Shown here: one piece after another, positions 32,600 to 43,701 of the stretch
How positions within the stretch are numbered: the stretch's first letter is position 1
How the letters are laid out: every line of letters starts with the position of its first letter
Assembly: GCA_949294665.1 (NCBI GenBank)
Contig: CASFID010000056.1
Coordinates: 1-64,000 of the forward strand
Direction of reading: 5' to 3'
Length of the DNA: 64,000 nucleotides
Origin: an uncultured Eubacteriales bacterium
GTDB lineage: Bacteria > Bacillota > Clostridia > Lachnospirales > Lachnospiraceae
Notes under the pieces: model-generated
What the model was told of the DNA's origin: nothing
Database searches by the model: none
The model's input: only the letters and a program-made list of their open reading frames with translations
Made by a program: the position numbers and the translations under genes

Positions 32600-34075
32600 A
32601 TGGCAGAAACGATTTGGAACGGAGTAGTGACGGTCTATGATTTTATTATGGACAACATTGTCATTATCAACGTCCTCTTTGCACTGATCATCGTGTTCTT
32701 TCAGAGGAGGTCTCCGCAGACGGTATGGACATGGCTTCTTCTGCTGTATTTTATACCGATACTTGGTTTCATCCTCTATCTTGTCATCGGGCAGGATTTC
32801 CACAAGAGCCGGATGTTCAAAGCGAAAGAGATAGAAGGGGAACTGAAATACGCTGTAAGGCGTCAGGAAGAGACGATCTATCATAAGCGTCTGAGGCTTG
32901 CAAATCCCGAGATGGTGCGCTTCAAGGATCTGATCCTGTACAACCTTGAAGCAGGAGAGGCTGTCCTGACAGACAACAACGATATCCGTATCTACACCGA
33001 CGGCAAGGCGAAGTTCCGAGCCCTTATCGATGAGATGCGTCAGGCGAAGAGATATATCCATCTTCAATACTATATTATCAGAAACGACGAACTCTGGCAG
33101 GAGATAGAGAAGGTCCTTATCGAGAAGTCCAGAGAGGGCGTGGAAGTGCGCGTGCTCTTTGACAGTATGGGATGCCGCACAATGAAGAACAGAGACTGGG
33201 AGCGTCTGGAAAGAGAGGGCATACAGGTGGCGGAATTCTTTCCGGCTCTTCTTGGAAAGCTACAGCTTCGTGTCAATTACCGCAATCACAGGAAGATCGT
33301 TGTCATAGACGGACGGATCGGTTTCGTGGGCGGTTTCAATGTGGGGCGGGAGTATCTCGGACGGGACAAAAAATTCGGCTACTGGCGGGACACGCATCTG
33401 TGTATCGAGGGGGCGGCGGTGACTTCGCTGGCTGTCCGGTTCGTGCTGGACTGGAATTATGCGGCGAAGGAGAATCTGTTCCTGGAGGACAATCTGTTCG
33501 AGATCCCTCAGTATACGCGGCATGGAAGAGATCCTGTACAGATCATATCAAGCGGACCGGATTCTCAGATCAAGACCATACATGATAATTATCTCCGCCT
33601 GATACACAGTGCGAAAGATCACGTGTATATCCAGACGCCGTATTTTATCCCGGACGATTCTATACTGGACGCGCTCAAGATCGCCAGCCGCTCGGGGATC
33701 GACGTGCGGATCATGGTGCCTTGCAAGCCGGACCATCCGTTCGTATACTGGGCCACATATTCGTATGTCGGCGACATGGTGGCTGCCGGCGCCAAATGCT
33801 ATGTTTACAATAACGGTTTCCTGCATGCAAAGACTCTGTGCGTGGACGGACTGGTCGCGTGCGTGGGGACGGCGAATATGGATATCAGGAGCTTCGGGCT
33901 TAATTTCGAGGTGAATGCTGTTATCTACAGCGAGCGCACCGTACAGCGTCTGGAGCGCGCATTTGAAAATGATATGACCCAGTGTACGCATGTCACAAGG
34001 AAGGTTTATGATGAGAGGAGTCTTGTCATTAAAGCAAAAGAGCAGTTTTCAAGACTTCTGTCACCATTGCTGTAA
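32600..34075 (+). CDS. cls: Cardiolipin synthase
   Basis: This 491-residue membrane enzyme condenses phosphatidylglycerol into cardiolipin. Two N-terminal transmembrane helices (IMDNIVIINVLFALIIVFF; WLLLLYFIPILGFILYLVIG) precede two phospholipase-D active sites: HRKIVVIDGRIGFVGG near residue 230 and HAKTLCVDGLVACVGTANMD near residue 410. A QTPYFIPDDSIL strand precedes the second site as in other Cls enzymes. AGGAGG precedes the ATG. The lipoprotein gene starts 67 bases downstream. Confidence 0.92.
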   Translation: MAETIWNGVVTVYDFIMDNIVIINVLFALIIVFFQRRSPQTVWTWLLLLYFIPILGFILYLVIGQDFHKSRMFKAKEIEGELKYAVRRQEETIYHKRLRLANPEMVRFKDLILYNLEAGEAVLTDNNDIRIYTDGKAKFRALIDEMRQAKRYIHLQYYIIRNDELWQEIEKVLIEKSREGVEVRVLFDSMGCRTMKNRDWERLEREGIQVAEFFPALLGKLQLRVNYRNHRKIVVIDGRIGFVGGFNVGREYLGRDKKFGYWRDTHLCIEGAAVTSLAVRFVLDWNYAAKENLFLEDNLFEIPQYTRHGRDPVQIISSGPDSQIKTIHDNYLRLIHSAKDHVYIQTPYFIPDDSILDALKIASRSGIDVRIMVPCKPDHPFVYWATYSYVGDMVAAGAKCYVYNNGFLHAKTLCVDGLVACVGTANMDIRSFGLNFEVNAVIYSERTVQRLERAFENDMTQCTHVTRKVYDERSLVIKAKEQFSRLLSPLL

Positions 34076-34142
34076 GATCGGCAGACAACTGCAGATCATC
34101 AACAGATCATAGAAAGAAAAGAAAGAGAAAGAGGAGAAAAAC

Positions 34143-35219
34143 ATGAAAAAGAAAATCATAAGTGTAATGCTTGCAGCAGTCCTTGCGGGGGCGCTTGCGG
34201 GGTGCAGTTCGGAACTGTCCAACGACTACGTGACGGTGAAGCAGTATAAGGGACTTGAGGTCCCGCAGCCCGCACAGACCGAGGTGACGGACGAACAGGT
34301 GGATCAGGTGATAGAGAGCAATCTCGCGGCATATGCCGAAAGAGAAGACGTCACAGACCGTCCGGCCCAGAACGGGGATATCGTTAATATCGACTATACC
34401 GGATATATCGACGGCGTGGCGTTCGATAACGGTTCTGCGGAGGACGCGGAGCTGGAGCTCGGGAGTAATTCATTTATAGGAGCGACAGACGATTATCCGG
34501 GATTCGAGGAACAGATAGAGGGACATAAAGCGGGTGATGAGTTTGATATCACAGTGCAGTTTCCGGAAGAGTACAGCCTGAATCCGGATATGGCGGGCGA
34601 GGTGGCCGATTTCCATATCGTACTTAATTCCATCCAGACAGAGTCCGTGCCGGAACTCACAGATGAGTGGGTGCAGGAGAACAGCGAGGAGTCAGAGACT
34701 GTCGACGAGTACAGAGAGGAAATACGTTCTACACTGGAAGAGAGCGTCGAGGAGTCTGCACGTTCAGAACTGAGGACGTCTGTCCTGAACGCCCTTCTGG
34801 AGAATACTGAAGTTAAAAAATATCCTGAGGATACTGTAAACGAGATGAAGGACAGATATACCGAAGCATACGTACAGACTGCGGAAGTATACGGTATGGA
34901 TCTGGGGGAATTCCTTGAGAGTTATATGCAGACGACCGAGGAAGAACTCAACGCCCAGGCGGAGGAATATGCTCAGCAGGCGGCGACTCTCCAGGAGGCA
35001 GTAAAACTGATCGCGGAAAAGGAGAAACTGGAACCGTCAGAAGAAGAATATCAGGAGAGCGCGGCTGAATATGCCGGACAATCCGGGTACGACGATGTGG
35101 AGGCGTTTGAGAAAGAAGTGGGAGAAGACCTGCTGAAAGCACAGATCCTTCAGGATGCCGTGGCAGAGTATCTGGTGGACGAATGCATCCAGGTGGAGCA
35201 GAGCGACGACGCACAGTAA
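34143..35219 (+). CDS. Trigger-factor-like FKBP lipoprotein
   Basis: The product has 358 residues. A lipoprotein signal peptide ends in the lipobox LAGC at about residue 21. After it come an FKBP-type prolyl isomerase domain (NGDIVNIDYTGYIDGVAFDNG; LGSNSFI; GHKAGDEFDITVQFPEEY) and a long helical C-terminal part (about 180-345) resembling the trigger factor chaperone arms. Cytosolic trigger factor lacks a signal peptide, so this is an exported relative, tethered outside the membrane, and probably helps fold secreted proteins. AGGAG lies before the ATG. Confidence 0.85.
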   Translation: MKKKIISVMLAAVLAGALAGCSSELSNDYVTVKQYKGLEVPQPAQTEVTDEQVDQVIESNLAAYAEREDVTDRPAQNGDIVNIDYTGYIDGVAFDNGSAEDAELELGSNSFIGATDDYPGFEEQIEGHKAGDEFDITVQFPEEYSLNPDMAGEVADFHIVLNSIQTESVPELTDEWVQENSEESETVDEYREEIRSTLEESVEESARSELRTSVLNALLENTEVKKYPEDTVNEMKDRYTEAYVQTAEVYGMDLGEFLESYMQTTEEELNAQAEEYAQQAATLQEAVKLIAEKEKLEPSEEEYQESAAEYAGQSGYDDVEAFEKEVGEDLLKAQILQDAVAEYLVDECIQVEQSDDAQ

Positions 35220-35280
35220 TCTGAGAGCGGACCGGGGATGCCGGAATGGACAGTATATGAAAGAAAAAGGAGGGAACGTC

Positions 35281-36171
35281 ATGCAGATGGAGAACAGAAG
35301 ACTCTGTGTTGAGATTTCAGAGATGGGAGCGGAAGTGACCAGGATTTACGATAAGAAATACGGTACGGAGATGCTCTGGGAAGCTGATCCCACATACTGG
35401 AAGCGCCATTCGCCGATCCTCTTCCCGAATGTGGGGAAGACATGGCATAACACCGTGCTGATAAACGGTACTCAGTATCCGACATCACAGCATGGATTCG
35501 CAAGGGACAATGCATTTCAGTGTATCAGGCAGAAGGCAGATCAGGCGTCATTCCTCCTCTCATCCTCGGAAGAGACGAAAGAGGTCTATCCGTTTGAATT
35601 CGAGCTGATCGTTACCTATACGCTGGAGTCTGATGCGCTGGTCGTGGACTGGGAAGTGAGAAATCCCGGCGACGAAGAGATGTATTTTACAATAGGCGGG
35701 CATCCCGCATTCCGGTTCGCGGGGGCGGGAGAGAAAAAGACGGACTACAAGCTGCGATTCCCGGGCAAGGATTCTCTTGAGTATATCCTCGTAGATATGG
35801 ACGAAGCGGCGGCAGATCCGTCGAAAGTATATAAACTGGAACTGGAAAATGAATGCTGTCCGGTCACGGAGGAAATGTTTGCAAATGACGCCCTGATCTT
35901 TGACGGAGGACAGATCAGCGAAGTGTGGCTCTGCCGGAAAGACGGCGCGCCCTATGTCGGCATGAGATGCGACGGCTTTCCGAATTTCGGTATCTGGTCT
36001 GTGAAGGATGCGCCGTTCGTCTGCCTGGAGCCATGGATGGGCAGGTGCGATGATATCGGGTTCGACAGGGAGCTCTCAGAGAAACCGGACGTCAATAAAG
36101 TAGCGCCCGGGGATACATTCCGACAGCGCTATACGATCATGGCCGGGAATCAGGATTTGTCCCTGATGTAA
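35281..36171 (+). CDS. Aldose 1-epimerase family protein (LacX-like)
   Basis: This 296-residue protein has the galactose mutarotase fold. Visible markers are SPILFPNVGK, the catalytic-type His in QHGFARDN, VVDWEVRNPGDEEMYFTIGGHPAF with the second conserved His, and a C-terminal CLEPWMGRCDD. The LacX/YeaD-like branch interconverts anomers of sugars or sugar phosphates; the substrate is not clear. ATG 35281 is chosen because AGGAGGG is directly upstream. Its last 35 bases overlap the 3' end of the convergent TetR gene. Confidence 0.85.
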   Translation: MQMENRRLCVEISEMGAEVTRIYDKKYGTEMLWEADPTYWKRHSPILFPNVGKTWHNTVLINGTQYPTSQHGFARDNAFQCIRQKADQASFLLSSSEETKEVYPFEFELIVTYTLESDALVVDWEVRNPGDEEMYFTIGGHPAFRFAGAGEKKTDYKLRFPGKDSLEYILVDMDEAAADPSKVYKLELENECCPVTEEMFANDALIFDGGQISEVWLCRKDGAPYVGMRCDGFPNFGIWSVKDAPFVCLEPWMGRCDDIGFDRELSEKPDVNKVAPGDTFRQRYTIMAGNQDLSLM

Positions 36172-36769
36172 GAAAACTCAGAGAACCGGGCGGATTGTCC
36201 GTACCTTTCTCTACGAGCGACACAAGTCCCGAGACGGTCTCCTCGATCTCTTCCTGAGAAGAGGGGACGATCGTATTGTCTATCTTTACGGCCAGTACGA
36301 TGAGTACGATCTCAGCCAGGACATCCGGCCGGTCAAAACGGATCTCGCCGGCGTCAATGCCCTGCTGTATGATCTCAGCCAGCACGGGCTTGAACTCGCT
36401 GATCAGATGATTCATGTATTTCTGGTGGAGCAGCGCCTTTTCCGGGGCGCCGGCTCCACTTTTTTTTCCTGATCTTAAATATTCTGTAGAAGCGTTGCGG
36501 CATGCCTGGAAGATCATTGCCATGCGCGTAAAAGGAGGGATCTCCGTCCGCGAGGAGAGGTCTTTGGCGGTAGACAGAGGCTTTTCATAGTTCCGTTCTA
36601 CAAGGGCCTCGAGGATAGAGTCCTTGGACGGAAAATAATAGTAGATGCTCCCTTTGCCTATTCCTGCCGTCTGCGCGATCTCGCTCACAGAGATCGTCTG
36701 CAGCTTTTTATTTTCCAAAAGTTTCTGTAATGAGTCGAGTATGAGGTTGTATTTCTTCTGGTCCGGCAT
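36137..36769 (-). CDS. TetR-family transcriptional regulator
   Basis: The product has 210 residues. The N-terminal DNA-binding domain contains SVSEIAQTAGIGKGSIYYYFPSKDSILEALVERNYE, a textbook TetR helix-turn-helix; the rest is a helical ligand-binding domain. The start at 36769 (MPDQKKYN) is chosen because homology begins here. It is divergent from the SCP2-hydrolase-condensation-ACP-ligase cluster; a palindrome overlapping that cluster's promoter is a candidate operator. It is therefore likely the local repressor, released by a lipophilic or acyl ligand (inference). Confidence 0.85.
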   Translation of the reverse strand: MPDQKKYNLILDSLQKLLENKKLQTISVSEIAQTAGIGKGSIYYYFPSKDSILEALVERNYEKPLSTAKDLSSRTEIPPFTRMAMIFQACRNASTEYLRSGKKSGAGAPEKALLHQKYMNHLISEFKPVLAEIIQQGIDAGEIRFDRPDVLAEIVLIVLAVKIDNTIVPSSQEEIEETVSGLVSLVEKGTDNPPGSLSFLTSGTNPDSRP

Positions 36770-36923
36770 AATATCCGCCTTTCTTGTCAGTGAGGTCTTC
36801 TTCCGATACCGGTCCCGACGTATGTCGTACTGTGGACAGGCACGTCCGAAGAACATTGTCAGTTCAGCTTAACACTTCAAGTATAGCATATCTGCTGTGA
36901 AAGGACCAGAAAGAAAAACAAAC

Positions 36924-36954
36924 AAAAAAAGCAGGGGAAAGTCCTGCTTTTTTT
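36924..36954. terminator. Bidirectional terminator between the TetR gene and the SCP2 cluster
   Basis: AAAAAAAGCAGG pairs with CCTGCTTTTTTT around a GGAAAGT loop. It lies between the divergent start regions, so it may insulate the two promoters. Confidence 0.85.
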
Positions 36955-36964
36955 GGCAGTGACA

Positions 36965-36980
36965 ACTGTTGACCAACAGT
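36965..36980 (+). promoter_or_regulatory. Candidate TetR operator overlapping the cluster promoter
   Basis: ACTGTTG and CAACAGT form a perfect inverted repeat with a 2-base AC spacer. The repeat contains TTGACC (36969-36974), a good -35 element, with TACTCT 17 bases downstream as a weak -10. Binding here would block the SCP2 cluster promoter. Confidence 0.55.
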
Positions 36981-37060
36981 CGGAAAGATGATACTCTAAC
37001 AGAAGAAATAAGATGACCGATGGTCGAAAAATGACAGATGCGGTCGAAAAGGAGGACATT

Positions 37061-37435
37061 ATGACCTACGCAGATATGTTTTCAAAAGTGAAAGGGATGC
37101 TGATGGAAGCAGATGTGAGCGATATCCGCGAACATCTGGCGTATCAATTTAATATCACCGGTGAGGCGGAAGGAATCTTCTATGCCGAGGTAAAAGACGG
37201 ACAGCTCTTTGTGGAACCGTACGAGTATTTTGACCGTGACGCAATGTTTACCTGTACGGCGGAGACGCTGTTTAAGATCGCAGACGGAAAGACCGATCCG
37301 ATTCTTGCCGTAACACTTGGAAAACTGAAAGTAGAAGGCAATATCGAGAAAGCTCTGAAATTAAAAGACCTGATCGGCAGCAAGAAAGCTGCGAAGAAAA
37401 GAGGGAAAAAAGCGGACAGGAAACAGAAAAAATAA
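37061..37435 (+). CDS. SCP2 sterol-carrier-domain protein
   Basis: The product has 124 residues. ATG 37061 has GGAGG 7 bases upstream; an earlier in-frame ATG does not. It matches the SCP2 lipid-binding fold: an N-terminal helix (FSKVKGMLMEADVSD), strands ending in FNITGEAEGIFYAEVKDGQL, and the late TLGKLKVEGNIEKALKLKDLIG. It ends in a very basic tail (KKAAKKRGKKADRKQKK). SCP2 domains bind acyl chains and other lipids in a hydrophobic cavity. It is first in the acyl-transfer cluster. Confidence 0.82.
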   Translation: MTYADMFSKVKGMLMEADVSDIREHLAYQFNITGEAEGIFYAEVKDGQLFVEPYEYFDRDAMFTCTAETLFKIADGKTDPILAVTLGKLKVEGNIEKALKLKDLIGSKKAAKKRGKKADRKQKK

Positions 37436-37458
37436 GTATTGTAAAAGCGGGTGATGAA

Positions 37459-38403
37459 ATGGGCAGGATATTAAAGGGGACCGCTGCGGTACTGGGACTG
37501 CTGACCGCAGCGGAGGCCGGAGGGACGGCGTATTTCTACAGAAGGACGATGAAACGTTACAATGCTAAGACGGAGCGCACGATGAAGATGTCCGGCGTGG
37601 ACTGGGAGAAGTATTTCCCGATCATGCACGGGCGGCACGACTGGATGATGGAACAGCCCCATGAGGATGTATGGATCACTTCCCATGACGGGCTGAAGCT
37701 GCACGGTACATATTTTGAGGGCGACGGGGGTACGAAAGCAGTGATCTGCTTCCACGGCTATACGAGCAAGGGCCTCAATGACTATGGAAGCCTCTCGTAT
37801 TATTATCTCCGGCACGGATTCCGGATGTTGCTGATCGACGAGAGGGCCCACGGAGAGAGTGAGGGAACATACATCGGATTCGGGACGATGGACCGGCTTG
37901 ACGGTATGAAGTGGATCGAGTGGATGACGGACAAGATCGGGGATGAGGCACAGATCCTGCTCCACGGCAATTCCATGGGAGGGGCGACCGTCTGCATGAT
38001 GAGCGGACTGAAACTTCCGCCCCAGGTGAAGGGGATCGTCTCCGACTGTGCGTTTACATCTGCAAAGGACGTATTCACGCACGTACTCCACAGTATGTAT
38101 CATCTTCCGGCATTTCCCATGATCCAGATCGCAGATAAGCTGAATAAGAGAAACGCGGGATACGGCCTCGACGAGTGCAATGCGGCAAGGGAAGTAAGAA
38201 AAGCGGAAGTACCGTTTCTGTTTATCCACGGAGAAAAGGACGTCTTCGTACCATGCCGGATGTGCGAGGAAATATACAGAAACTGCGCGTCGCCGAAAAC
38301 GAAACTCATTGTCAGAGATGCAGGACACGCAGAGAGCTATTACAAGGACACGGAAGCCTATGAGAACGCGCTGGATTCATTTATCGGGGGGATAATGGAA
38401 TGA
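37459..38403 (+). CDS. Membrane-anchored alpha/beta hydrolase
   Basis: The product has 314 residues. An N-terminal helix (GTAAVLGLLTAAEAGGTAYFY) is a likely membrane anchor. The hydrolase core shows VICFHGYTSKG, the nucleophile elbow LHGNSMGGA, an Asp in FIHGEKDVFVP and a His in RDAGHAESYY. This is the YjfP/Bem46-like type that cleaves esters or thioesters. The gene sits 23 bases after the SCP2 gene and overlaps the condensation-domain gene by 4 bases (ATGA). It could act as the releasing thioesterase of the cluster (inference). Confidence 0.82.
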   Translation: MGRILKGTAAVLGLLTAAEAGGTAYFYRRTMKRYNAKTERTMKMSGVDWEKYFPIMHGRHDWMMEQPHEDVWITSHDGLKLHGTYFEGDGGTKAVICFHGYTSKGLNDYGSLSYYYLRHGFRMLLIDERAHGESEGTYIGFGTMDRLDGMKWIEWMTDKIGDEAQILLHGNSMGGATVCMMSGLKLPPQVKGIVSDCAFTSAKDVFTHVLHSMYHLPAFPMIQIADKLNKRNAGYGLDECNAAREVRKAEVPFLFIHGEKDVFVPCRMCEEIYRNCASPKTKLIVRDAGHAESYYKDTEAYENALDSFIGGIME

Positions 38404-39806
38404 TGAAGACAAGAAAAGGGCATAAAGTTTATCCGCTTACCGTAGCGCAGAAATTTCATCTTTATTATGCACCGCACTGTCCGAATATGGCTGTTCTGAA
38501 TATCGGGACGAGCCTGACGATCGAAGTGGAACTGGACTGGGATCAGTTAAAGCGATCGATCAATGAAGCATATGCCAGGAGCGAAGCCATGCGTGTGCGG
38601 CTTGCAAAGGATAAAGAGGGAACCTGGTATCAGTATGTGACAGAGCCGGAAGAGAAGGATATCGAGTTCGTTGATTTCTCGAACGGTACGATAGAAGAGG
38701 CGGAAGTAGTGATGAAGAAGTGGACGGCCAGGCCGTTCAGGATGTTCGACGCGCCTTTGACGAGAATCGTTATGATCAGGATGCCGGATAGATTCAATGG
38801 GATCTATTTCCTTGGAAATCATATGATCGTGGACGCACAGTCGCTGATCTGTTTCCTGAAAGATATCATCGAGCTGTACTGTCATGCGAAATATGAAGGT
38901 GTGCCGTATCCCAAAGATATGGCGTCCTATATCCAGCAGATTCAGCGGGATCTTGCATATGAAGCGGGGAGCAGGGCGCAGTTGAGAGACGCAGAATATT
39001 TCCATAAAGAGATCGAGACAGGCGAACCGATCTACAATGACATTCACGGTACCGCAAAACTGGAATCCATGCGCAGGACGTTCCGAAACCCGGATCTCAG
39101 GTCCGCTTTCTGCGTGACTGACGATACAAGTTCCTCTCTTGATATCTTCCACCTTGAGGCGGAGCCGACGAAGCGTCTGATGGATTTCTGCGGGAAATAT
39201 CACGTCTCGCTGGCCTGTCTTCTCCTGATGGGGCTTCGTACCTATTATCAGAAGATGAACGGTTTTGACGATGTATCACTGACGACGACGATCGCGAGAC
39301 GGGCGACTCTCAAAGAGAAGAAATCCGGGGGAACAAGGATCCACTCCTTCCCGTTCCGCACGATATTCCCGCAGGATATGAAGTTCATCGACGCCGTCTA
39401 TGCGATCCGGGATAAGCAGAACGAGTATTTTCGCCATGCGAACTATGATCCCACGGCATTCTTTGCGTACCGTGCGAAAACATATCCGCAGCCGCAGGCA
39501 GGACTCGGTTATGAGCCAATCTCTCTGACCTATCAGCCCTTGACGTTAAAAGAGAAAGGGCTGGACCAGCTGGGAGATATCCGCTACAAGACGAAATGGT
39601 ATCCGAACGGGATCTGTCCCCAGGGGATGTACCTGACGGTCATGCACCGCCCGGAGGACAACGGACTTGACTTTAATTTTGAACATCAGATCAAGGCGGT
39701 TTCGAGAGAGGAACTGGAGTATCTGTACTACTATCTGTGCAGGATCATGTTCAAGGGCGTTGAGAACCCGGAACTGACGATCGGGGAGATCATCAGGCTT
39801 GTCTGA
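38400..39806 (+). CDS. Stand-alone condensation-domain acyltransferase
   Basis: This 468-residue protein has the chloramphenicol-acetyltransferase/NRPS-condensation fold. The N-terminal YPLTVAQKFHLYY region, the RSEAMRVRL segment and the active-site strand IYFLGNHMIVDAQS are present. The HHxxxDG motif reads NHMIVDA: the second (catalytic) His and the Asp are kept, the first His and Gly are replaced. No adenylation or carrier domain is attached. With the ACP and ligase genes that follow, it probably moves an ACP-bound acyl group onto an amine or alcohol. Overlaps the hydrolase gene. Confidence 0.78.
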   Translation: MMKTRKGHKVYPLTVAQKFHLYYAPHCPNMAVLNIGTSLTIEVELDWDQLKRSINEAYARSEAMRVRLAKDKEGTWYQYVTEPEEKDIEFVDFSNGTIEEAEVVMKKWTARPFRMFDAPLTRIVMIRMPDRFNGIYFLGNHMIVDAQSLICFLKDIIELYCHAKYEGVPYPKDMASYIQQIQRDLAYEAGSRAQLRDAEYFHKEIETGEPIYNDIHGTAKLESMRRTFRNPDLRSAFCVTDDTSSSLDIFHLEAEPTKRLMDFCGKYHVSLACLLLMGLRTYYQKMNGFDDVSLTTTIARRATLKEKKSGGTRIHSFPFRTIFPQDMKFIDAVYAIRDKQNEYFRHANYDPTAFFAYRAKTYPQPQAGLGYEPISLTYQPLTLKEKGLDQLGDIRYKTKWYPNGICPQGMYLTVMHRPEDNGLDFNFEHQIKAVSREELEYLYYYLCRIMFKGVENPELTIGEIIRLV

Positions 39807-39892
39807 AAGAGCAGACCGGCGTAACAGAAGAAGCAGCGTGTCGGAAAAAACGCGCGGACATGTCAGATTCAAGTGGAAAAGGAGACAAGATC

Positions 39893-40117
39893 ATGTTTGA
39901 AAAACTGGTAGACATCATCTGCAACTATGTAGAAGTAGAACCGGAGAATATTCATCCGGAATCGCGGTTTATGGAGGATCTGGGATTTACATCTTTTGAT
40001 TTTATGAGCATGCTTGGAGAGATCGAGGATGAGTTCGACGTCGAGGTAGAGCAGACAGAAGCGGCGAATATCCGCACGGTACAGGAAGCAGTCGACTACC
40101 TTGAGAAACTGATGTAA
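39893..40117 (+). CDS. Acyl carrier protein
   Basis: The product has 74 residues, is acidic and has the four-helix ACP pattern. The phosphopantetheine-attachment Ser is in EDLGFTSFDFM (the usual DSL reads TSF). ATG 39893 is chosen because GGAG lies 9 bases upstream and the fold starts here. It lies between the condensation and ligase genes, so it is a dedicated carrier rather than the fatty-acid ACP. Activation needs a phosphopantetheinyl transferase, which is not in the window. Confidence 0.88.
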   Translation: MFEKLVDIICNYVEVEPENIHPESRFMEDLGFTSFDFMSMLGEIEDEFDVEVEQTEAANIRTVQEAVDYLEKLM

Positions 40118-40199
40118 GCAGCCCGGCCGCAGAGAATGCTGCGGGGGAGAGCAGCTGGGGACGATATGGCATGAAAAACAGGGAAAGGAATGTGAGAAT

Positions 40200-41708
40200 A
40201 TGCTTTGCAGTACGGTGCGTCAGATCCTGGTCAATACAGAGGAGAAATATGGACCGGAAGATGCGATACGTTACAAGATCAGTAAAAATGAGATCGCTTC
40301 CAGGTCTTACACACAGCTCAAAGAGGACAGCGAGAGTTTCTCCAATGTTCTGAAAAGTCTTGGAGAGCAGGGAAATCATATCGCCGTCATCGGAATGACT
40401 TCCTATGCATGGCTGGTAACATACTTCGGAACAGTCAACAGCGGGAGCGTAGTAGTGCCGCTGGACGTAAACCTTCCGGCGGAAGACGTGTGCGATCTGG
40501 TCGCGCGGTCGGATTCCACAGTGCTTGTCTATGACGAGATCAGAAAGGATGTGGCTGCGATCGCAAAAGAGAAGTGTCCGCAGCTTCGGCATCTCGTGTC
40601 CATGCAGCAGTCGGCGCATGACGAACACGCTTACTCTTTCCGGAAGCTGCTGGAAGAGAACAAAGGCGGCTTCGACTATGAACCGCAGCCGGACCAGCTC
40701 TGTACGATCATGTTCACGTCAGGAACAACGGGAAAGAGCAAAGGAGTCATGCTCACACACAGAAATGTATCGGAAAACGCCACCTGTCTGGATTTGAAGA
40801 TCCCGGAGAGGATCGTGATCATGACAGTGCTCCCGATCCATCACGCCTACTGTCTGAGCATGGATATCCTGAAAGGGGTATCTCTGGGGGCAGTGATCTG
40901 CATCAATGATTCCCTGATGCGCGTGGCGAAGAACATCAAACTGTTCAAGCCGGAGATGATCCTGATGGTGCCGCTGATGATAGAGACAATGGCGAAGAAA
41001 CTGGAGGAGGCTTCTCTTCTTCCTGCAAAGATCGTAAAAAGCCAGGTGTTCGGAAAACAGTTTCACACCATCTGCAGCGGCGGAGCCTATCTTGATCCGA
41101 AGTATATCGATATGTTCAAAAAATATGACATTGTCATCCAGCAGGGATATGGAATGACAGAGTGCTCGCCGGTCATCAGCATCTCCCGGAGATGGAATAT
41201 CCGCAAAGATTCCGTAGGCCAGCTCATCCCCAACTGTGAGGCGAAGACCGTCGACGGCGAACTCTGGGTGAGAGGGAGCAGCGTCATGCAGGGATACTAT
41301 AAGATGCCGGAAGAGACGGCGGAAACACTGGAAGACGGCTGGCTCAAAACCGGAGACCTGGGCTATGCAGACGAGGACGGATTCGTCTATCTGACAGGAC
41401 GCAAGAAGAACCTGATCATCACAAAGAACGGCGAGAACGTATCACCGGAAGAACTGGAGAATGCCCTTGCTTCCAACCGGCTTGTGGGGGAGGTACTCGT
41501 CCGGGAGAAAGACGGCGTGATCGAGGCGGAGATCTATCCGGATCAGGATTACATGAAAAAGAAACGGATCAAAGATGTGAGGGGGAAACTTCAGGAGATC
41601 ATCGACGGGTATAATAAGACGGCGGCTCCCCAGAAAAGGATCTACAGCCTGACCGTAAGGGATCAGGAGTTTGAGAAGACAACGACAAGGAAGATCAGGA
41701 GGTTTTAA
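40200..41708 (+). CDS. Acyl-AMP ligase / adenylation enzyme
   Basis: The 502-residue member of the adenylate-forming superfamily has the P-loop FTSGTTGKSKGVMLTH near residue 180, YGMTECSPV near 316, GDLGYADEDG near 385 and the C-terminal catalytic Lys in TTRKIRRF. It activates a carboxylic acid with ATP and transfers it to CoA or a carrier, most likely the ACP encoded 82 bases upstream. Sequence character is closer to fatty-acyl ligases than to amino-acid adenylation domains; the substrate is unknown. Last gene of the cluster. Confidence 0.85.
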   Translation: MLCSTVRQILVNTEEKYGPEDAIRYKISKNEIASRSYTQLKEDSESFSNVLKSLGEQGNHIAVIGMTSYAWLVTYFGTVNSGSVVVPLDVNLPAEDVCDLVARSDSTVLVYDEIRKDVAAIAKEKCPQLRHLVSMQQSAHDEHAYSFRKLLEENKGGFDYEPQPDQLCTIMFTSGTTGKSKGVMLTHRNVSENATCLDLKIPERIVIMTVLPIHHAYCLSMDILKGVSLGAVICINDSLMRVAKNIKLFKPEMILMVPLMIETMAKKLEEASLLPAKIVKSQVFGKQFHTICSGGAYLDPKYIDMFKKYDIVIQQGYGMTECSPVISISRRWNIRKDSVGQLIPNCEAKTVDGELWVRGSSVMQGYYKMPEETAETLEDGWLKTGDLGYADEDGFVYLTGRKKNLIITKNGENVSPEELENALASNRLVGEVLVREKDGVIEAEIYPDQDYMKKKRIKDVRGKLQEIIDGYNKTAAPQKRIYSLTVRDQEFEKTTTRKIRRF

Positions 41709-41933
41709 GAGGAGGCCCCTGCTCCGGATTCCCTGTTTGACGCTATATCCCAGGACTCCCTGAAACTGAGCAGGCCGGGAAAGATGCCGTGATAATAGTT
41801 CTCTTTTTTTATCATCGCGCCGGGCAATCGGCAAGGCGCACTTGACGGCAGCGAGTGATGCTTGGTAAGATAAGAGTTAAAGTTCACATTACAGATGAAC
41901 ATATCATCTGCAAGTGTGCGGGGAGGAATACAT

Positions 41934-42704
41934 ATGCTGCTTACGATCGATGTGGGAAACACGAATATCACAATGGGCGTGTTCAGGGAGGACATTCTGC
42001 AGGGGATGTTCCGTATGACGACGAAACGGCCGAGGACATCGGATGAATACGGGATGACGATCTGCGGCATACTGGAACACAGGTCCATCGATCCGAAAAA
42101 GATCAAAGCGGTTATCATCGCATCGGTCGTTCCCGACATCATGTATTCCCTGACAAGCGGCGTTATCAAATATCTGGACATTACGCCCTGTATCGTCTCG
42201 GCAGATTCAGATACAGGCGTCCGTGTAAATACAGATAACCCGTCCAGGACTGGTCCTGACCGTATCGTCAATGCGGCGGCGGGCTATGCGATCGCGAAAG
42301 GGCCGGCTATTGTGATTGATTTCGGCACGGCAACCACTTATGATCTGATCGGTCCTGACAGTACTTTGGAGGCGTGTGTCATCGCGCCTGGGATCGAGAC
42401 CGCGGGACGTTCCCTCTGGGGAGGAGCGGCGATGCTTCCCGCTATCCAGATTCAGAAGCCGGATACTGCGCTCGCCCGGGATACTGTGACGGGAATGCAG
42501 GGCGGCCTCGTGTTCGGAGCGATCGGACAGACAGAGTACATTGTGAGACGAATGAAAGAGGAGTCGGGCTATGAGGACGCATATGTGATCGCCACAGGCG
42601 GACTCGGGAAGATCATCGCGGAAGAGACAGAATGCATCGATCTGTACGATCCTCAGCTTACGCTGAACGGATTGCGGCTGATCTATGAGAGGATGGAGAA
42701 ATAA
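41934..42704 (+). CDS. coaX: Type III pantothenate kinase
   Basis: This 256-residue CoA-pathway enzyme phosphorylates pantothenate. Motifs are LTIDVGNTNITMGVF (phosphate binding), GPDRIVNAAAGYA, IDFGTATTYDLIG and PGIETAGRSLWGGAAMLP. ATG 41934 has GGGGAGG upstream and starts the conserved core. It lies after the ACP-ligase cluster, with a 225-base gap, and 37 bases before dusB; a functional link to the ACP cluster through phosphopantetheine is possible but unproven. Confidence 0.92.
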   Translation: MLLTIDVGNTNITMGVFREDILQGMFRMTTKRPRTSDEYGMTICGILEHRSIDPKKIKAVIIASVVPDIMYSLTSGVIKYLDITPCIVSADSDTGVRVNTDNPSRTGPDRIVNAAAGYAIAKGPAIVIDFGTATTYDLIGPDSTLEACVIAPGIETAGRSLWGGAAMLPAIQIQKPDTALARDTVTGMQGGLVFGAIGQTEYIVRRMKEESGYEDAYVIATGGLGKIIAEETECIDLYDPQLTLNGLRLIYERMEK

Positions 42705-42741
42705 GACGTTTTAGTATATTAGGAGTCAGGGTTTTGCTATA

Positions 42742-43701
42742 ATGAAACATTTAAAAATAGGAAATGTGGAACTTGAAAACCGATATATACTCGGACCTAT
42801 GGCAGGTGTGACGGACCTGCCATTTCGTCTGCTCTGCCGGGAGCAGGGCGCAGGGCTTCTGTGTATGGAGATGGTGAGCGCGAAGGCGATCTATTATAAT
42901 AACCGGAACACAGAGAGTCTCCTGGAGATCCATCCGGATGAAAAGCCGGTCTCCCTGCAGCTCTTCGGTTCAGACCCGAAGATCATGAGCGAGATGGCAA
43001 AGCGGATCGAGGAGCGTCCGTTTGCGATCCTGGATATTAATATGGGATGTCCGGTGCCGAAAGTCGTCAGGAATGGCGAGGGCTCTGCGCTCATGAAAGA
43101 GCCGGAGCTGGTCAGAGAGATCGTAACCGCCGTTGTCAGAGCGATAGAGAAACCGGTGACGGTAAAGATTCGAAAAGGATTTGACGACGATCATGTCAAT
43201 GCGGTAGAGATCGCAAAGATCATAGAGGATGCGGGAGCCGCGGCGGTGGCGGTCCACGGGAGGACACGGGAACAGTATTACAGCGGGAAAGCGGACTGGG
43301 ACATCATCCGTCAGGTGAAAGAAGCAGTTTCAATCCCCGTGATCGGAAACGGAGACGTCACGAGCCCGCAGAAAGCGGACGAACTGGTCCGGCAGACCGG
43401 ATGCGACGGGGTCATGATCGCAAGGGGAGCTCAGGGGAATCCGTGGATCTTCTCTGAGATGGTATCCTGGGAAGAAACCGGCAGACTTCCGTCCCGGCCG
43501 GACAAGGATGAGGTGTGTCGGATGATCTTAAAGCACGCCCGGCTGCAGCTTGAGTATAAGGGGGAATTTACAGGCATCCGGGAGATGAGAAAGCATGTTG
43601 CCTGGTATACGAAAGGCCTTAAGGGAGCCGCGCGTCTGAGGGAAAAAGTGAATGCGGTAGAGAGCCTTGAAGAACTGGAAAATCTCTTGACATCATTATA
43701 G
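42742..43701 (+). CDS. dusB: tRNA-dihydrouridine synthase
   Basis: This 319-residue FMN enzyme reduces uridine in tRNA. Motifs are LGPMAGVTDLPFR, the catalytic Cys in DINMGCPVPKVVRNGEGSALM, VKIRKGFDD, HGRTREQYY and IGNGDVTSP. The DusB branch fits by length and by the GRTR segment. Upstream, AGGAG is unusually far (17 bases) from the ATG and AGGG is at 9 bases. A TATAAT overlaps the start codon and is probably not a promoter. The greA promoter lies inside the last codons. Confidence 0.9.
   Translation: MKHLKIGNVELENRYILGPMAGVTDLPFRLLCREQGAGLLCMEMVSAKAIYYNNRNTESLLEIHPDEKPVSLQLFGSDPKIMSEMAKRIEERPFAILDINMGCPVPKVVRNGEGSALMKEPELVREIVTAVVRAIEKPVTVKIRKGFDDDHVNAVEIAKIIEDAGAAAVAVHGRTREQYYSGKADWDIIRQVKEAVSIPVIGNGDVTSPQKADELVRQTGCDGVMIARGAQGNPWIFSEMVSWEETGRLPSRPDKDEVCRMILKHARLQLEYKGEFTGIREMRKHVAWYTKGLKGAARLREKVNAVESLEELENLLTSL

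Follow-up and report, generated by a model that had tools for sequence, protein, structure and literature searches.

A probable TetR-controlled fatty acid amide operon with SCP2 and hydrolase genes in a Lachnospiraceae bacterium

In this study, we analysed a 64,000-nucleotide stretch of DNA (the window; positions 1 to 64,000 of contig CASFID010000056.1, assembly GCA_949294665.1) from an uncultured Eubacteriales bacterium of the Lachnospiraceae, and focused on six genes that encode a divergent TetR-family repressor, an SCP2-like protein, an alpha/beta hydrolase, a stand-alone condensation enzyme (C), an acyl carrier protein (ACP) and an acyl-adenylate ligase (A). Judged by its sequence, the core of C, ACP and ligase represents an already known kind, the fatty acid amide (FAA) operon, which is also called the condensation-carrier-adenylation (CTA) operon. 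It is likely that the whole block works as an FAA operon in which TetR regulates how fatty acids are captured and conjugated. Compared with the open-licence literature, the six-gene variant, its TetR switch and a link to a published cholesterol report are new.

Condensation enzyme and carrier-ligase core

The window operon belongs to this known kind because its C enzyme is homologous to OaaC and its genes follow the C-ACP-A order, which is the defining feature of the CTA operon in Lachnospiraceae. In a search of the Protein Data Bank (PDB), the C enzyme matched entry 12kh with an E value of 5e-107 over residues 8-467 (39.6% identity, full length); the next-best match had an E value of 1.8e-08, and C domains of nonribosomal peptide synthetases (NRPSs) scored far below 12kh. 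According to the data statement of the OaaC paper, 12KH is OaaC of Coprococcus eutactus (PMC13142362). OaaC converts acyl-ACP and free amines, such as aminovaleric acid, to N-acyl amides, and no product was observed with oleoyl-CoA as donor (PMC13142362). The window shares with the OaaC/OaaACP/OaaA system the free-standing C, ACP and A proteins, the HxxxD motif and, presumably, a carrier-loaded donor.

The catalytic His141 and Asp145 were invariant in all 25 aligned proteins. Compared with the motif (D/H)HxxxD(S/A/G), the window sequence NHMIVDA keeps the His and Asp, has Asn in the first position and ends in Ala, a permitted last residue that was reported at the motif end of 36% of 127 FAA C domains (PMC13142362). 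Between C and the ligase lies a free-standing ACP with its phosphopantetheine serine, and the ligase is of the stand-alone adenylating type, with both P-loop and terminal lysine motifs. Since the C, ACP and ligase functions reside in three single-domain proteins and no multidomain modules are present, a canonical modular NRPS was ruled out, in line with the first-pass annotation of this DNA, which had seen no full NRPS modules.

The product is very likely an N-acyl amide (FAA). That annotation had proposed an N-acyl or O-acyl product; the N-acyl part stands, as a ligase, a dedicated ACP and a stand-alone C enzyme make up the FAA set, and the O-acyl part found no support here. It had also stated that no characterised product was known for this combination, which no longer applies to the core, since both OaaC/OaaACP/OaaA and CTA operons make FAAs, but holds for the full six-gene set, for which none was found in the open-licence literature.

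CTA operons of gut Clostridia were reportedly described by Chang et al. in 2021, as told in papers citing that work. Cultures of CTA-positive Blautia and Coprococcus have been reported to contain more acyl ethanolamides than CTA-negative ones. The CTA operons of gut Clostridia and Blautia wexlerae resemble the window in the order C, carrier, A, with the carrier in the middle, and in their occurrence in Lachnospiraceae; however, they are described as three genes, and the accessible text mentions no regulator, SCP2 or hydrolase (PMC13060934). Some amines protected B. wexlerae against fatty acids (PMC13060934).

Operators, clades and conservation of the gene set

In all likelihood, TetR controls the operon via a twin operator between tetR and the SCP2 gene. 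TetR-SCP2 intergenic regions were taken from 126 loci, 105 of them distinct. Of the 105 regions, 95 contained an exact GACCnnnGGTC core, and the number rose to 100 when a single mismatch was tolerated. In 50 rounds of dinucleotide shuffling, exact sites appeared in 0.1 regions on average (maximum 2) and one-mismatch sites in 3.98 (maximum 9), although the shuffles overstate independence, given the common descent of the regions. Cores with any other spacer length between 0 and 8 occurred in 0 to 2 regions. Paired sites with at most one mismatch, 42-46 bp apart, were present in 94/105 regions, most commonly at a spacing of 44 bp (73), followed by 43 bp (17). The cores are palindromic with three variable central bases, and across relatives the upstream site contains TTGACC and is followed at promoter distance by TG.TAatcT. 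These putative palindromic operators, located at a candidate promoter beside a divergent tetR, are supported by conservation. A first operator idea, ACTGTTGACCAACAGT, was rejected, as it occurred in that or a related form in just 7 of the 105 regions. We found no evidence for further TetR targets in the same genome, because the count of TGACCNNNGGTCR (3 forward and 4 reverse sites) is close to that of the reversed control (3 and 3). At 36923-36955, between the SCP2 promoter region and tetR, there is a 13-pair terminator-like hairpin directed toward tetR (shuffles of the region gave 0.6 hairpins of this type), which may end leftward read-through or attenuate tetR.

We surveyed 397 genomes of the family, including the window's own, with a match threshold of E<=1e-20. 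The condensation gene had matches in 57 genomes, the last two of which (23-25% identity) are probably of a different kind. In a 63-sequence tree, which included seven of the 26 same-genus loci and omitted the partial row L124, the window fell within a 43-row group with modest fork support (82/84), sister to a 16-row group with OaaC. The two groups were separated at 100/100 from an outgroup of only two rows (L142 and L143), and L138 and L139 formed long branches. These two are distant stand-alone sets from two family genomes, with the orders C-A-ACP (L138, 6257-9601) and ACP-A-C (L139, 3991-7356).

Gene content was compared between clade I (63 loci) and clade II, the OaaC clade (15 loci, a list set by hand from identity and tree); L138, L139, L142 and L143 were left out as too distant, and L140 and L141 as lacking C. 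Genes were scored above set bit scores, and some absences are contig ends (e.g. L056). Among the 63 clade I loci, SCP2 was present in 60, the hydrolase in 62, TetR in 53, ACP in 61 and the ligase in 62. In contrast, none of the 15 clade II loci had SCP2 or this TetR, five had a hydrolase, and ACP and ligase were each found in 12. The motif ended as xHxxxDA in 63/63 clade I loci (with D or H in the first position in 40) and as DHxxxDS in 14/15 clade II loci. The window differs from the OaaC system in its separate tree group, in Ala rather than Ser at the motif end, and in having SCP2, a hydrolase and a divergent TetR with putative operators. Three clade II loci (L122, L127 and L128) have weak TetR-profile matches (25-27 bits) close to the operon and may use another TetR-family regulator; thus, only this TetR subtype, and not all TetR-type regulators, is confined to clade I.

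A lack of co-conservation had been named beforehand as an argument against this reading of the cluster. This objection fails, because the exact order, with TetR on the reverse strand followed by SCP2, hydrolase, C, ACP and ligase on the forward strand, was found in 69 of the best 80 of 558 confirmed matches, a set that is biased toward near relatives and overlaps the loci used for the clade counts. At one locus (L055, 9708-11241, genome G008), the ligase gene is split over two open reading frames (ORFs). Neither the SCP2-hydrolase-TetR variant nor its operator was found described in the open-licence literature. Viral contigs gave one pattern match and zero relatives, in a search that reaches close relatives. 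Matches on 37 plasmid records were all under 60% identity (20.6-23.7% among the 20 matches listed), and the annotated ones among those 20 were NRPS or adenylation-domain proteins, so there was no sign of a plasmid-borne operon.

Within the genus, the C gene was present in 24 of 36 genomes, the window's own aside. The block is flanked by what appear, from their protein sequences, to be aldose-1-epimerase-like and coaX-like genes. In G034, which lacks the C gene, these two genes are about 100 bp apart. In G009, SCP2 stands alone between them (L141, 8586-8963); TetR, hydrolase, C, ACP and ligase were not found there, nor was an exact operator, which suggests either an own use for SCP2 or a recent loss. 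Where the site is visible, these two genomes thus show one loss or gain of the whole block and one of nearly all of it. The counted absence in G006 is an assembly gap, with TetR, SCP2 and a partial hydrolase at a contig end; G001 has different neighbours ahead of coaX, and in G011 the site is cut by a contig end. In the remaining seven genomes without C, the site was not found, and the best coaX match had about 32-35% identity.

Gene limits, SCP2 and hydrolase

All six ORFs were confirmed, each above the Pfam cut-off for its own family (Table 1). The five genes downstream of the divergent tetR are tightly packed, as had been proposed: SCP2 and hydrolase are 23 bp apart, hydrolase and C overlap by 4 bp, and gaps of 53 bp and 82 bp separate C from ACP and ACP from ligase. 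The revised starts of ACP and TetR are probable, judged from shorter relatives.

Table 1. Genes and putative control sites of the six-gene block (window positions)
Feature	Position	Strand	Remarks
Operator O1 TTGACCAACAGTCGG	36969..36983	+	one mismatch to GACCnnnGGTC; overlaps putative -35 TTGACC
Operator O2 ATGACCGATGGTCGA	37013..37027	+	exact core 37015-37025; no other exact core in the 64-kb window
Putative promoter TTGACC-17-TACTCT, TG before -10	36969..36997	+	similar pattern between operators in relatives
TetR-family repressor	36137..36856	-	TetR_N 3.9e-11; C-terminal domain TetR_C_39; start likely near 36769
SCP2-like lipid-binding protein, 124 aa	37061..37435	+	SCP2 6.3e-13; ribosome-binding AGGAGG at 37050-37055
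Alpha/beta hydrolase	37459..38403	+	Abhydrolase_1 6.4e-16; triad S172-D261-H290; N-terminal hydrophobic helix
Stand-alone FAA-type condensation enzyme, OaaC homologue	38400..39806	+	Condensation 8.7e-32; motif NHMIVDA
Dedicated acyl carrier protein	39860..40117	+	PP-binding 1e-12; phosphopantetheine site DLGFTS; start more likely 39893
Acyl-adenylate ligase, presumed ACP loader	40200..41708	+	AMP-binding 9.8e-63; TSGTTGKSKG; C-terminal KIRR lysine

The start of SCP2 was corrected to 37061 from the ATG of the ORF list (37013), because 37013 lies inside O2, an AGGAGG precedes 37061 and 11 of 34 relatives have no earlier in-frame start; Met1 at 37061 was invariant in 35/35 aligned SCP2 proteins. 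The predicted model has a mean local confidence (pLDDT) of 86, and its top hits in the PDB are SCP2 proteins. Fatty acids are also among the ligands of SCP2 folds, as in 1pz4, which carries a C16 fatty acid, and we lean towards a role as lipid carrier for this pathway. In large-genome members of the Blautia genus, the SCP2s at L260 (2846-3454), L261 (7230-7847) and L262 (7994-8395) have Lys/Glu-rich C-terminal tails, which are long in L260 and L261.

The catalytic triad of the hydrolase was kept in at least 97% of 67 sequences, clade II included. Its best profile and fold match is the Pyrococcus furiosus esterase Pf2001 (5g59), which shares the fold at about 23% identity and whose substrate is not transferable; release of fatty acids as an esterase can be suggested only tentatively. 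The enzyme had been annotated as a membrane hydrolase. An N-terminal helix is indeed predicted (residues 2-30, weakly hydrophobic in the window protein), but membrane anchoring is not firmly supported: a 19-residue hydropathy of 1.6 was reached by 12 of 62 orthologues, and the window protein has 1.18. The charge pattern favours a cytosolic catalytic domain in 52 of the 62 and the opposite in seven. One weak second match to the hydrolase was found in the same genome. Of the five hydrolase relatives by OaaC-clade operons, four lie ahead of C and share its strand, and the fifth, in L128, lies downstream on the opposite strand; the one compared had 32% identity to the window hydrolase.

No phosphopantetheinyl transferase or transporter was recognised among the neighbouring ORFs, which agrees with the earlier annotation and comes from reading by eye, without a family search of these neighbours; an ACPS-family match is located on a different contig. 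Rfam gave zero matches within 34000-43000. Between 46000 and 58000 the G+C content is lower (0.38-0.44, compared with mostly 0.47-0.54 elsewhere; a second dip occurs at 20-22 kb), and this stretch may be a mobile element.

Proposed pathway, alternatives and meaning

In the pathway proposed here, the ligase would activate a fatty acid with ATP and load it onto holo-ACP, and the C enzyme would join the carrier-bound acyl chain to a small, free amine and release an N-acyl amide, as shown in homologues. SCP2 would bind and deliver a hydrophobic substrate or remove the product. The hydrolase might free fatty acids from ester lipids, its most likely task, or clear mis-loaded acyl groups. TetR would sit on the two putative operators flanking the SCP2 promoter until a ligand of fatty acid, acyl or sterol type releases it. 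The cell would probably benefit by getting rid of toxic free fatty acids, and effects on the host would be incidental.

A 2026 study of Blautia hominis reported an SCP2-like protein, RS03310, that was raised by cholesterol and whose recombinant form bound cholesterol and gave NADH; it was published as a cholesterol-oxidising protein, with the condensation-domain protein RS03300 as predicted partner (PMC13029680). In genus g53, which includes named Blautia, the C gene was present in 12/20 genomes with 56-80% identity to the window, placing it in clade I by identity; all five loci inspected (including those of the 5-6 Mb genomes G458, G462 and G463) showed the complete six-gene order together with an exact operator. 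In G463, the SCP2 (L261) agrees with RS03310 at all 12 residues whose positions the accessible text gives (Phe63 and 11 in the docked pocket). This comparison covered 132 SCP2s, some from the same genomes; the next best agreed at 10 and 9 of the 12, and the window SCP2 at five. As the L261 SCP2 is the first gene of its six-gene operon, RS03310 is with high likelihood the head of such an operon and RS03300, which is close to it in tag numbering, the C enzyme. The FAA operon is not recognised in the available part of that report (PMC13029680).

Should the operon instead handle sterols, with SCP2 binding or oxidising cholesterol as proposed for RS03310 and RS03300, both the response to cholesterol and the 12/12 residue agreement would be accounted for. 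We regard this as improbable: the remaining genes are the FAA set, the window SCP2 has five of the 12 named residues, SCP2 folds bind fatty acids as well, and no nucleotide-binding domain was recognised in the 174-aa L261 SCP2 by inspection, with no family search made. Moreover, the reported activity was 5.7 nmol/min/mg and came from refolded protein, and the liquid chromatography-mass spectrometry was pooled and, according to its authors, qualitative (PMC13029680). An arrangement that joins the two pathways is somewhat less improbable but still unlikely: the hydrolase would cut acylglycerols or sterol esters; the sterol or fatty acid set free would be taken up by SCP2; ligase, ACP and C would make the N-acyl amide from the toxic fatty acid; and TetR would sense the lipid load. 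Condensation-fold enzymes can esterify, and the last motif residue is unlike that of most OaaC-clade rows, so that C might acylate a hydroxyl acceptor rather than an amine; given that amides are the product of the closest homologue with both a structure and an assay, and that Ala stands at the motif end in 36% of the FAA C domains counted, this seems very improbable. Equally remote is a housekeeping role in which ligase, ACP and C recycle or incorporate exogenous fatty acids and no dedicated amide is secreted. The ligase resembles general acyl-CoA ligases and SCP2 alone persists in G009, but a dedicated ACP and a condensation enzyme would be needless for such a role, and 12 of the 36 same-genus genomes gave no C gene (although several of these assemblies are incomplete and, in G006 at least, it is hidden by a contig break).

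Several observations weigh against a TetR-controlled FAA operon. With an identity of only about 40% to OaaC, the C enzyme may accept a different acceptor; the last motif residue is Ala, and the first varies among the 63 clade I loci (D 28, N 15, H 12 and Q 8). TetR was not found in 10 of these loci, partly at contig edges, and the OaaC clade has 10/15 loci with no hydrolase relative. The roles suggested for SCP2 and hydrolase come from fold and context, and the B. hominis paper assigns SCP2 to cholesterol oxidation (PMC13029680). Finally, the proposed promoter was missed by a simple consensus scan, because its -10 element is weak.

FAAs of gut bacteria act on human receptors, and one preprint reports an effect on GLP-1 secretion; the predicted products would resemble signal lipids of the human body. 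Having a conserved switch for FAA synthesis would show when these compounds are made, and the TetR ligand would offer a direct handle on their production. The operon context also suggests what SCP2 and hydrolase genes, which on their own seem unconnected, may be for, and the link between a cholesterol-transforming SCP2 and an FAA operon calls for a re-test of the cholesterol claim. If the unlikely joint handling of host lipids were true, the cholesterol response of the B. hominis SCP2 and the production of acyl amines by Blautia would be two views of one regulated system.

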